From Bradyrhizobium sp. SK17 (GTDB taxonomy: Bacteria > Pseudomonadota > Alphaproteobacteria > Rhizobiales > Xanthobacteraceae), in NCBI RefSeq assembly GCF_002831585.1, contig NZ_CP025114.1:124001-188000 (forward strand): DNA of 64,000 nucleotides, written 5' to 3'. Positions within the stretch are counted from its first letter, which is position 1, and the number at the start of each line of letters is the position of its first letter. The translations under genes were made by a program, and so were the position numbers. Positions 45,542-49,557 of this stretch are shown piece by piece. The notes below the pieces were generated by a model. It worked only from the letters and a program-made list of their open reading frames with translations. It was not told where the DNA came from and made no database searches.

Positions 45542-45771
45542 GCCGGCCAGCCTAATGAACTTTCGCCACCTTGCCAAATGGCCGGCGTGTCGCCTTCATC
45601 CTTCTGCCAAGCAGAAATCTCCAATGTTACCTGACGTTTAATCACGATGTTTTCATCCTGGCCTAAACGCTATCCGTCATTCGCCAGAGCGGTGTTGTGC
45701 GGAGGCTGATACATTGCACTCCGGCAAGCGGATCAGTGGATCCGAGAGTGCCAACGCAAGGAGGGTTCGAC

Positions 45772-46248
45772 GTGATATCGAAAAGCATGGTTATCGCAGC
45801 AGGCCTGATAGCAATATCGTCTACGTTCGCCTTCGCAGACGATGGTTTGATCACAAAGCCAAGCAAATACTCCGTCAAAGACACTATCGAGAAGTTTGAA
45901 GCCGCCATCAAGGCGAAGGCTGCGGGAGGATGGGTTATCTTCAGTCGCATCGACCACGCCGCCGCGGCAAAGGAAGCCGGATTGGAAATGCGTCCGCGAA
46001 CCGTCATCGTTTTCGGCAATCCAAAAGCTGGAACGCCTCCGATGACCAAGAGCGCCACGCTCGCCATTGACCTGCCGATGAAGGCGTTGGTCTGGCAAGA
46101 CGATCAGGACAAGGTCTGGCTGACGTATAATTCCAGCGAGTACGGCGCAAAGGTGATCTCTCCTCGCCATGGTCTCGCCGTTCCGGAGGAAGCCGCCAAG
46201 AGACTCGAGAAATTCCTTGCCGAGGCCAGCGACCAGAGCACGCAATAA
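45772..46248 (+). CDS. DUF302 domain protein, secreted
   Basis: A 158-residue protein: signal peptide from GTG (ISKSMVIAAGLIAISSTFAFA), then a DUF302 domain with YSVKDTIEKFEAAIKAKAAG, IDHAAAAKEAGLEMRPRTV and PLKAL-like MKALVWQDD, ending LEKFLAEAS. AGGAGG lies 9 bases before the GTG at 45772. It is divergent from the sor sigma operon and may share its regulation. Function of the family is unknown; compare the cytoplasmic version at 6933-7343. Confidence 0.85.
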   Translation: MISKSMVIAAGLIAISSTFAFADDGLITKPSKYSVKDTIEKFEAAIKAKAAGGWVIFSRIDHAAAAKEAGLEMRPRTVIVFGNPKAGTPPMTKSATLAIDLPMKALVWQDDQDKVWLTYNSSEYGAKVISPRHGLAVPEEAAKRLEKFLAEASDQSTQ

Positions 46249-46301: not shown

Positions 46302-46721
46302 TTACGATGCGGGCGACGACAGCGCTTCCAAAATTGGACAAGGAACGGACTCGCCCGGCGCGCAGGCTTTCGCCAACGCCGCCAGCGCTTTTTCCAGCTT
46401 TTTGAGACTCCCAATTTTCCCGCGTACATCGTCCAGATGACGCGCGGTCAATTCTTTTGCAGCGGTCGTACACATCGTGCCGCTGTCCGCCAACTGCAGC
46501 AATTTCCGTATATCGTTCAGAGAAAAGCCAAGCTCGCGGCTGCGCCGGACGAATGAAAGCCGCTGTACGTGCTGCTGTTCATAAGCTCGATGCCCCCCTC
46601 TTGTGCGGGGTGGGACAGCGATAAGCCCTTCGCGCTCGTAGTAGCGGATCGTTTCAATGTTGGTGCCAGTTTCTCCGGCGAGACCACCGATCAACATCGG
46701 TCCAGCAGACTTTTTGCTCAT
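46302..46721 (-). CDS. MerR-family metal-responsive regulator
   Basis: A 139-residue MerR protein: helix-turn-helix IGGLAGETGTNIETIRYYER, RTRGGHRAYEQQHV and the long dimer helix. Metal-ligand candidates are Cys84 (GTMCTT), Cys120 and Cys128 (KACAPGESVPCPI), the pattern of MerR-type mercury or ZntR-type zinc sensors with slightly different spacing. It is divergent from a 27-residue peptide gene across a textbook MerR promoter (46736-46766), which it should activate. No merTPA genes are present. Confidence 0.9.
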   Translation of the reverse strand: MSKKSAGPMLIGGLAGETGTNIETIRYYEREGLIAVPPRTRGGHRAYEQQHVQRLSFVRRSRELGFSLNDIRKLLQLADSGTMCTTAAKELTARHLDDVRGKIGSLKKLEKALAALAKACAPGESVPCPILEALSSPAS

Positions 46722-46735
46722 TCCTCAAAATCCCC

Positions 46736-46766
46736 TTGTATCTGTAGTTGCTACAGGTTCTAGGAT
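46736..46766 (+). promoter_or_regulatory. MerR-type promoter with 19-base spacer
   Basis: -35 TTGTAT (46736-46741), a 19-base spacer, and -10 TAGGAT (46761-46766). The spacer holds the dyad CTGTAG-TTG-CTACAG (46742-46756). The over-long spacer with a centred dyad is the hallmark of MerR-activated promoters. It points towards the peptide gene at 46808. Confidence 0.85.
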
Positions 46767-46807
46767 AACATCGAGTCAAAACCTAGTGGCTCGACAAGGA
46801 GAAAAAA

Positions 46808-46891
46808 ATGATCGTTCGGTTGATGACAGCAGTTTTCGCTCTCGCTGTCTTTGGCGGTACAGTGGCCGCTGCTTGCCCATTGTGTCCGTAA
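46808..46891 (+). CDS. 27-residue exported Cys-Pro peptide under MerR control
   Basis: An AGGAG site sits 7 bases before the ATG. The peptide is MIVRLMTAVFALAVFGGTVA followed by AACPLCP and a stop. It is a plain signal peptide with a possible cut after VAAA that would leave CPLCP, a CxxC metal-type pair. Between a MerR promoter and a terminator, it is the only open frame on a transcript of ~150 bases. It could be a metal-binding peptide, a truncated longer protein, or a leader. I know no named family. Confidence 0.55.
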   Translation: MIVRLMTAVFALAVFGGTVAAACPLCP

Positions 46892-46902
46892 CTCAAGAAG
46901 GA

Positions 46903-46929
46903 GGCCGCCTTTACAGGCGGCCTTCGTTT
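46903..46929 (+). terminator. Terminator of the peptide mini-gene
   Basis: GGCCGCC (46903-46909), loop TTTACA, GGCGGCC (46916-46922), followed by TTCGTTT. A GC-rich 7-base stem with a T-rich tail 11 bases past the peptide stop, closing the short unit. Confidence 0.75.
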
Positions 46930-47018
46930 CATTCCAGCATGATAAGGAATCCACGGACTTCGCTTGGCTGACATTGCATGCCTGTGGGCGTAACTACGAT
47001 CGCTCGACAGACGCTTCT

Positions 47019-47501
47019 CTATCCGCCGACTCCGCACCACACAGCGAGCATCACGATAATGGTTCCACCCATCGAAAGAATCACGGGCAACGCAGCGATC
47101 TGCAGCAGAGCTTCACGGCCGGTGATCCTGCCGGTTGCCGTATCAACCGGACCTCTGACAAAGGCGCCAAACGACCGCGTCATAGATCGTTCCGGCGTCA
47201 TGTTGCGAGAATACCATCCGCCTCCTGCCAGCAGGCCGATGAGCATCACATTGATGAATCCAACCATGACGATCGAGACAGCGGCTTCGCGGTCTCCAGC
47301 AAAGCCAATCCAGGCTGCTATCACGAACCAGGCAAAAGCTCCGATTGAAATCCAGATTGCAGCTGGATGAACAGCGGTCGATTGCTTCAGAAGCGGCTGG
47401 GTTAGCGGGATCCTGGCAACCGACGTTGATCGCCGCGCGACTGGAAGGGAATTCGCTTGAAACGCACCTTTGGGTGCTTGTAACGCTACTTGTGCCATCA
47501 T
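47019..47501 (-). CDS. Unrecognised two-to-three-helix membrane protein
   Basis: 160 residues: a polar N-terminal ~45 (APKGAFQANSLPVARR), helices AAIWISIGAFAWFVIAAWI, AVSIVMVGFINVMLIGLLAG and ALPVILSMGGTIIVMLAVW, with the segment WYSRNMTPERSMTRSFGAFV between helices 2 and 3. GGAG sits just upstream of the ATG. The family is common in Bradyrhizobium-type genomes but has no function known to me. No close operon partner. Confidence 0.7.
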   Translation of the reverse strand: MMAQVALQAPKGAFQANSLPVARRSTSVARIPLTQPLLKQSTAVHPAAIWISIGAFAWFVIAAWIGFAGDREAAVSIVMVGFINVMLIGLLAGGGWYSRNMTPERSMTRSFGAFVRGPVDTATGRITGREALLQIAALPVILSMGGTIIVMLAVWCGVGG

Positions 47502-49137: not shown

Positions 49138-49557
49138 TCAAAAATCCTTGTGGTTGAGATTGAATGTTGCCGGTTCGGTTGGCTGCGATAAGTGGGCCGG
49201 GAGCTGCGTCAACGCGCGTTTCATGACGTCTATCTCCTGCAATTGCTCGACGATGATGCCCTGTGCCAGACGCCGCAGCACCGGATCCTTCCCGAATTGC
49301 AACTGGATGCGCGCCATATCGACAGCACCCTGATGATGCGGAATCATCATCGCCGCGAAGTCACGATCAGGATCGCCCGAAGGCGCAACCATCATGTCGC
49401 GATTCATGAGCTCCATGGCGCGACCCATCTGGGCGTCGAACGAATTGTCGGTGGTGGAACTCGTCGGCAAATGATGCATCTGCCCATCATGAGCAAAGAC
49501 AGCGGTGCCGACGATGAGAGCGGCACCAAGTGCCGTGGTCATGATGTATTTTGACAT
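49138..49557 (-). CDS. DUF305 family secreted protein
   Basis: 139 residues: signal peptide to ~22, then a four-helix DUF305 domain with FDAQMGRAMELMNRDMMV, FAAMMIPHHQGAVDMARI and IVEQLQEIDVMKRAL. The His and Met residues of the MMIPHHQGA segment are often seen in copper-related gene sets. Ferritin-like fold is predicted for the family; function not proven. First gene of an operon with the beta-propeller protein. Confidence 0.88.
   Translation of the reverse strand: MSKYIMTTALGAALIVGTAVFAHDGQMHHLPTSSTTDNSFDAQMGRAMELMNRDMMVAPSGDPDRDFAAMMIPHHQGAVDMARIQLQFGKDPVLRRLAQGIIVEQLQEIDVMKRALTQLPAHLSQPTEPATFNLNHKDF

Follow-up and report, generated by a model that had tools for sequence, protein, structure and literature searches.

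In Bradyrhizobium sp. SK17, roughly 190 bases lying between a merR gene and a gene convergent to them appear to form a self-contained, metal-induced gene for an exported micro-peptide with two thiols, a reading to which we give a probability of about one half. The unit lies within the window, the 64,000 nucleotides analysed here (G000:C2:124001-188000), on a plasmid of this soil bacterium, the second contig (285,478 bases) of a genome of 8.29 Mb. MerR regulons are usually recognised by the pumps, reductases and chaperones that they drive; here a conserved MerR clade drives a very short product. At the level of sequence a MerR-type promoter, an open reading frame, a terminator, a pairing with one MerR clade and purifying selection are established, and because the pair of switch and peptide is kept in other bacteria, it is probable that the gene encodes a genuine metal-response peptide missed by annotation, and that it is no broken remnant. 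The unit and its regulator are composed as follows.

46302-46721, minus strand: merR, a MerR-family regulator of 139 amino acids with Cys83, Cys120 and Cys128 (ORF call and family matches)
46736-46741, plus strand: -35 hexamer TTGTAT (direct reading, rechecked; relatives have TTGCAT, TTGCGT or TTGTGC at the same place)
46742-46756, plus strand: operator dyad CTGTAG-TTG-CTACAG (CTGTAGTTGCTACAG) in the 19-base spacer (direct reading, rechecked)
46761-46766, plus strand: -10 hexamer TAGGAT (direct reading, rechecked)
46773-46792, plus strand: 5' leader hairpin GAGTCA-AAACCTAG-TGGCTC, directly before the ribosome site (fold and conservation)
46796-46801, plus strand: ribosome binding site AAGGAG, with the ATG 6 bases on (direct reading, rechecked)
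46808-46891, plus strand: 27-codon peptide gene MIVRLMTAVFALAVFGGTVAAACPLCP, stop included, from the ATG at 46808 to the end of the TAA at 46891 (reading, homologues, selection test)
46900-46925, plus strand: terminator hairpin of 11 pairs with a T-rich tail after it (terminator scan; hairpin also in L238 and L271)

The original prediction had described a MerR promoter whose 19-base spacer holds the dyad, a ribosome site, a 27-codon frame and a terminator, all divergent from a MerR gene, and re-reading bears out each of these parts. The dyad is centred in the spacer, as expected of a promoter of a MerR-type regulon. A promoter scan lists none at the unit because it considers spacers of 16-18 bases alone, and the spacer here has 19. 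The terminator scan by itself is no proof, since 1.7 terminator-like sites are expected per shuffle of the region. The next called gene (47019-47501), which has no family, is on the opposite strand, and longer plus-strand frames (e.g. 46978-47370) overlap it. The borders of the unit emerge when the window is aligned with two relatives, L238 and L271. The leader hairpin is conserved best, with 20/21 positions identical to either relative; promoter and operator agree with both at 26/31 positions. The stretch of the ribosome site reaches 9/15 in either comparison, a low value that stems from a 4-base indel. For L238 and L271, in that order, the ORF has 59/84 and 58/84 identical positions, the gap from stop codon to hairpin 5/8 and 3/8, and the terminator hairpin 20/26 and 19/26; in the flanks the figures are 12/23 and 11/23 before the promoter and 14/41 and 15/41 after the terminator. 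A simple terminator scan does not list the hairpins of L238 and L271, which were read from the sequence and, for L238, also from the fold.

Searches for the MerR-peptide pair in other genomes, which the original prediction had called for, added eight distinct loci from seven genomes to that of the window. The divergent ORF is thus present at nine loci in eight genomes (the window, L238, L271, L237, L240, L239, L009, L178 and L184), and each of the eight relatives encodes a peptide with a signal-type N-terminus, then an [AVI]-x-A site, and [AVIL]C[PT][LF]C(P/Q) as its ending. The perfect dyad CTGTAGNNNCTACAG is present in seven of the eight units compared (the exception is L184) and in L271 as well, i.e. 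it is intact at eight of the nine loci. Among 231 MerR loci (209 distinct places) whose upstream sequence spans 300 nt or more, the peptide is found at 12, namely the nine and L038, L039 and L118, which are near-identical to the window. L226 and L093 also have a C..C ending, in unrelated-looking frames, and at the remaining MerR loci of the 231 no ORF of 20-50 codons has a C..C at its end.

The first genome search (120 genomes) yielded as best other relative L009 of genome G102, whose MerR is 53% identical and whose divergent strand holds an operator, a ribosome site, a 26-codon ORF MIAKFVLATGLLLAMGATAYAICPFC, a hairpin and then a convergent gene. From the family of G102 (30 genomes) came two more pairs, both in G848 (L178 and L184), and from that of the window (248 genomes, of which 44 had a match) L237, L238, L239 and L240, besides L236, which repeats the window's own sequence and belongs to the record of L038. 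L271 came from the genus of G1357 (29 genomes), along with L270 matching L039, and nothing new from the genus of G1368 (43 genomes). An order search covered 397 genomes (121 with a match) and a class search 385 (70 with a match); inspection covered the loci returned, at most 30 for each order, class or family search. Over 398 genomes of the phylum a MerR profile gave 25 matches, one being the window and the other 24 lacking the MerR-peptide pair. A contig scan with the MerR protein, of which the best 80 of 571 loci were kept, includes L038, identical to the window over 8,417 bases, and L039, 99.99% identical over 7,666; being copies of the window, these add no independent information. Of the named records, the Bradyrhizobium betae plasmid pBbPL7HG1 comes closest (99.9% identity over the 681 bases compared), and in a plasmid collection the window peptide matches this B. 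betae copy only, the G848 peptide nothing. Peptides without a MerR were sought as well. A two-row peptide profile over 149 relatives was significant in G000 and G102 only (next best E 0.035). A nine-row profile, which is weak for distant copies, was convincing in G000 and G1210 only over 134 family genomes, a draw that may omit other known carriers. Its weaker matches L305 and L306 lie inside long unrelated frames and L307 has no such motif; none of the three has a MerR match, and they were set aside. The fourth is L308 (E 0.0197).

In all nine peptides the chain ends directly behind the CxxC, at 26-27 codons counted from the aligned start, and none extends past this ending. Upstream in-frame starts exist in six of them, giving 37-48 codons (L009, L237, L239) or 27-28 (L238, L271, L240). 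Longer homologues that would have made the window copy a truncation were thus looked for and not found. Five residues are invariant in all nine: A8, G16, A21, C23 and C26. Inspection places alanine at -1 of the putative cleavage site in 9/9 and glycine five residues before it, also in 9/9; position -3 holds alanine in six and, in the other three, V or I, residues still allowed there at signal peptidase sites. The pattern of substitutions is that of a protein-coding gene. In four disjoint pairs (a test on 25 codons of eight sequences, L271 being left out) the 94 differences divide into 25/12/57 by codon position (1/2/3), a third-position count reached by 0 of 100,000 random placements, with pS 0.66, pN 0.19 and pN/pS of about 0.28. 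This pattern places the ORF under purifying selection at the protein level, less clearly so between distant copies, since pN/pS ranges from 0.20 to 1.07 over all 28 pairs and the highest value is that of L238/L009. For the window and L238, pS is 0.78 and pN 0.16. Both of these units are stand-alone, and the peptide sequence is therefore kept even where no gene that it could regulate lies behind it.

The window MerR has the three metal cysteines and matches PF13411 (70.4 bits) and PF09278 (62.0 bits); its best NCBIfam model is TIGR02051, the mercury MerR, at 124.6 bits against a cut-off of 150.85, and it stays below the cut-off of all 20 NCBIfam families listed. In a tree of 128 columns and a chosen 109 of 250 MerR rows (L271 left out; many other forks unresolved), the peptide-linked MerRs of eight loci and one relic form a group of nine rows with an SH-aLRT of 99, inside which none of the other 100 rows falls. 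Two same-clade MerRs, L124 (G260) and L125 (G179), have a broken N-terminus and no peptide; behind them, by reading, stand Cys-rich exported-type ORFs and a DUF411-like ORF. The B. betae plasmid merR (L118, NZ_CP044544.1, 15023-15232) is disrupted in frame by a one-base difference in a run of C, is annotated as a 70-aa protein and appears as two tblastn pieces; a sequencing error is a possible cause, and the stretch of peptide, promoter and terminator shows no further difference from the window. The record lists no gene over the peptide ORF, in a gene table known to be incomplete. Given that the L009 MerR lacks the first metal cysteine, that L184 lacks the dyad and that the B. betae merR is disrupted, not every copy looks regulated.

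How might such a gene work? Once loaded with a thiophilic metal (mercury as Hg(II), or else Cu(I)/Ag(I)), the MerR protein would untwist the promoter with its 19-base spacer. An mRNA of about 150 nt with a hairpin near each end would be made, and the peptide of 26-27 residues translated and exported; cleavage behind [AVI]-x-A would then leave [A/V/I/L]-C-[P/T]-[L/F]-C-(P/Q). The predicted product is ACPLCP in the window, L238 and L271, and ICPFC, LCPFC, VCPLCP, ICPLCQ or VCTLCQ in the others. Outside the cytoplasm its two thiols may hold a metal or hand it on, as the CxxC loop of MerP does, minus the rest of the protein. The motifs CPFC and CPLC resemble the active site of glutaredoxin, and they resemble the CVLC of the replicon's own MerP. 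One point counts against this course of events: a chain of 27 residues is still almost wholly inside the ribosome tunnel at termination, and export would therefore need to be post-translational.

Like MerP (TIGR02052), the peptide has a putative signal peptide followed by a CxxC metal motif under MerR control, and in G1368 it precedes a MerT-like gene and a GDCCVxC gene. MerP is an HMA-type protein of about 90 residues, whereas the present peptides have 26-27 (27 in the window), match nothing in Pfam or NCBIfam and can form no HMA fold. The peptide is perhaps a reduced MerP-like metal ligand. If it is exported and binds metal, a dithiol of five or six residues does a job that falls to a folded protein elsewhere, and other MerR-family regulators with no obvious target may hide such outputs. 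With clearly less confidence we propose a new family of MerR-induced periplasmic metal ligands, possibly the smallest dedicated ones, in which the active product left by signal cleavage, a [AVIL]-C-[PT]-[LF]-C-(P/Q) of 5-6 residues, replaces MerP and which spread together with their regulator as a 190-bp cassette of promoter, peptide and terminator through metal-resistance islands. Its novelty is judged against family libraries and annotated records. The regulator itself is a MerR / CueR / CadR-PbrR type in its domains, its three cysteines and the dyad in a 19-base spacer; it differs from these in forming its own clade, in lying below the NCBIfam cut-offs and in having a tiny peptide as its output. 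Many of 45 top MerR loci have a MerT, MerE-like or GDCCVxC gene as the apparent first divergent gene, and some, by reading, a cation diffusion facilitator.

The alternatives differ in what the peptide, or its transcript, would do. Foremost among them is an uncleaved membrane microprotein, a short helix that spans the membrane once, its CPLC facing outwards, and would serve as partner of MerT or of another metal transporter. Length and hydrophobic core suit it, as does the MerT-like gene 70 nt downstream in G1368; we nevertheless hold it to be unlikely, given that the alanine at -1, the A, V or I at -3 and the glycine kept in all nine fit cleavage, and that four units have no transporter gene behind them on the same strand.

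A role as leader peptide or nascent-chain sensor, in which the CxxC, while the chain grows, responds to metal or redox state and so sets the expression of the genes behind, has models in TnaC and in the copper uORFs CruR and CutF. CruR and CutF are small exported-type ORFs with a CxxC-type motif that head metal genes and control the gene downstream. The ORF likewise heads a short operon in G848 (first copy), G1350 and G1368, a hairpin lacking a T-run stands between ORF and GDCCVxC gene in L178, and Pro directly precedes the stop codon in four of the nine copies. However, the next gene is convergent in four of the nine units, namely the window, G1357, G1421 and G102, which leaves these without a downstream gene to control, and yet the peptide of the window and L238 is under purifying selection. 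In four further units a gene does follow the peptide. We regard this role as less likely still.

The original prediction had left open whether the output is a peptide or a short regulatory RNA. The codon pattern favours the peptide, though the leader hairpin would allow the RNA a role in addition. An RNA, or an RNA and peptide in one, whose short two-hairpin transcript acts on other mRNAs, would account for a leader hairpin identical at 20/21 positions between the window and L238 when 78% of the synonymous sites of the ORF differ. Such conservation exceeds the needs of a mere mRNA leader; protection of the 5' end of a very short mRNA and a role of the RNA itself are the options. The window leader folds with -7.1 kcal/mol (z -2.0, p 0.047 against shuffles), and the fold is unusual also in L009 (p 0.007); against shuffles it is not unusual in L238 (0.103), L178 (0.120) and four others (0.31 to 0.71). 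L009 and L178 have a comparable stem, GAGCC...GGCTC, in the corresponding position. Rfam adds a weak match to the sRNA BjrC1505 (RF02356), at 30.0 bits and E 0.0021. Like this sRNA, the predicted transcript would be short, alphaproteobacterial and ended by a GCCGCC...GGCGGC terminator, but the match lies below the 50-bit gathering cut-off and aligns best over the GC-rich terminator, and the genome's real BjrC1505 is found elsewhere, at G000:C1:383385-383524 with 135.9 bits. Since the real copy lies on C1, we put the match down to likeness of terminators and reject the unit as a copy of this sRNA. The third-position excess speaks for selection on a protein, and an RNA output seems about as improbable as the leader peptide.

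That the unit is a decayed remnant of merP or merT is scarcely credible: the replicon's MerP has a signal peptide and a C-V-L-C, which makes a distant origin from merP by internal loss thinkable, but the nine distinct loci share one ending, selection acts on the short form, and the MerR-clade loci inspected hold no longer homologue, so that a truncated relic is rejected.

The original prediction held that no mer or metal pump genes follow the unit. This stands for the window, where no mer transport or reductase gene is under the unit's promoter, and does not extend to three relatives with a MerT-like gene, a GDCCVxC gene or both. In G1368 the MerT-like gene that stands behind L237 (57.6 bits, cut-off 150) is followed by a GDCCVxC gene above its cut-off, and the 755 bases up to the contig end hold no merP. 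The first copy of G848 has its GDCCVxC gene 72 nt downstream, and in G1350 the conserved part of that gene begins 61 nt after the stop. Behind the second copy of G848 (L184 / L209), which has lost the dyad and kept the peptide, is a copper-resistance multicopper oxidase (above cut-off); by reading, G848 has a P-type ATPase-like ORF too. In G1210 the contig ends 109 bases on.

The convergent neighbour of the stand-alone units is CusF-like in G1357, a cation diffusion facilitator-like ORF in G1421 and, by reading, a phosphoketolase-like ORF in G102. The CusF-like and copper-oxidase-like proteins of G1357 are both below the NCBIfam cut-offs; Cus-like ORFs are present there as well. Thus the best model of the regulator points to mercury and much of the company to copper or silver, which does not decide between them. 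The window's replicon has two further MerRs beside mer genes, with MerT and MerA read from the sequence, and its MerP scores 55.5 bits with TIGR02052 (cut-off 92.55). Two near-duplicate mer clusters, L002 and L003, are on G000:C2, and the merT frame of L003 seems interrupted relative to that of L002. GDCCVxC genes recur behind the peptide (L178, L237, L240), and on plasmids they also neighbour MerT or MerR genes. Close to the unit, the window has a DUF305 protein (CopM-type metallochaperone; 49138-49557) and a DUF302 protein (45697-46248).
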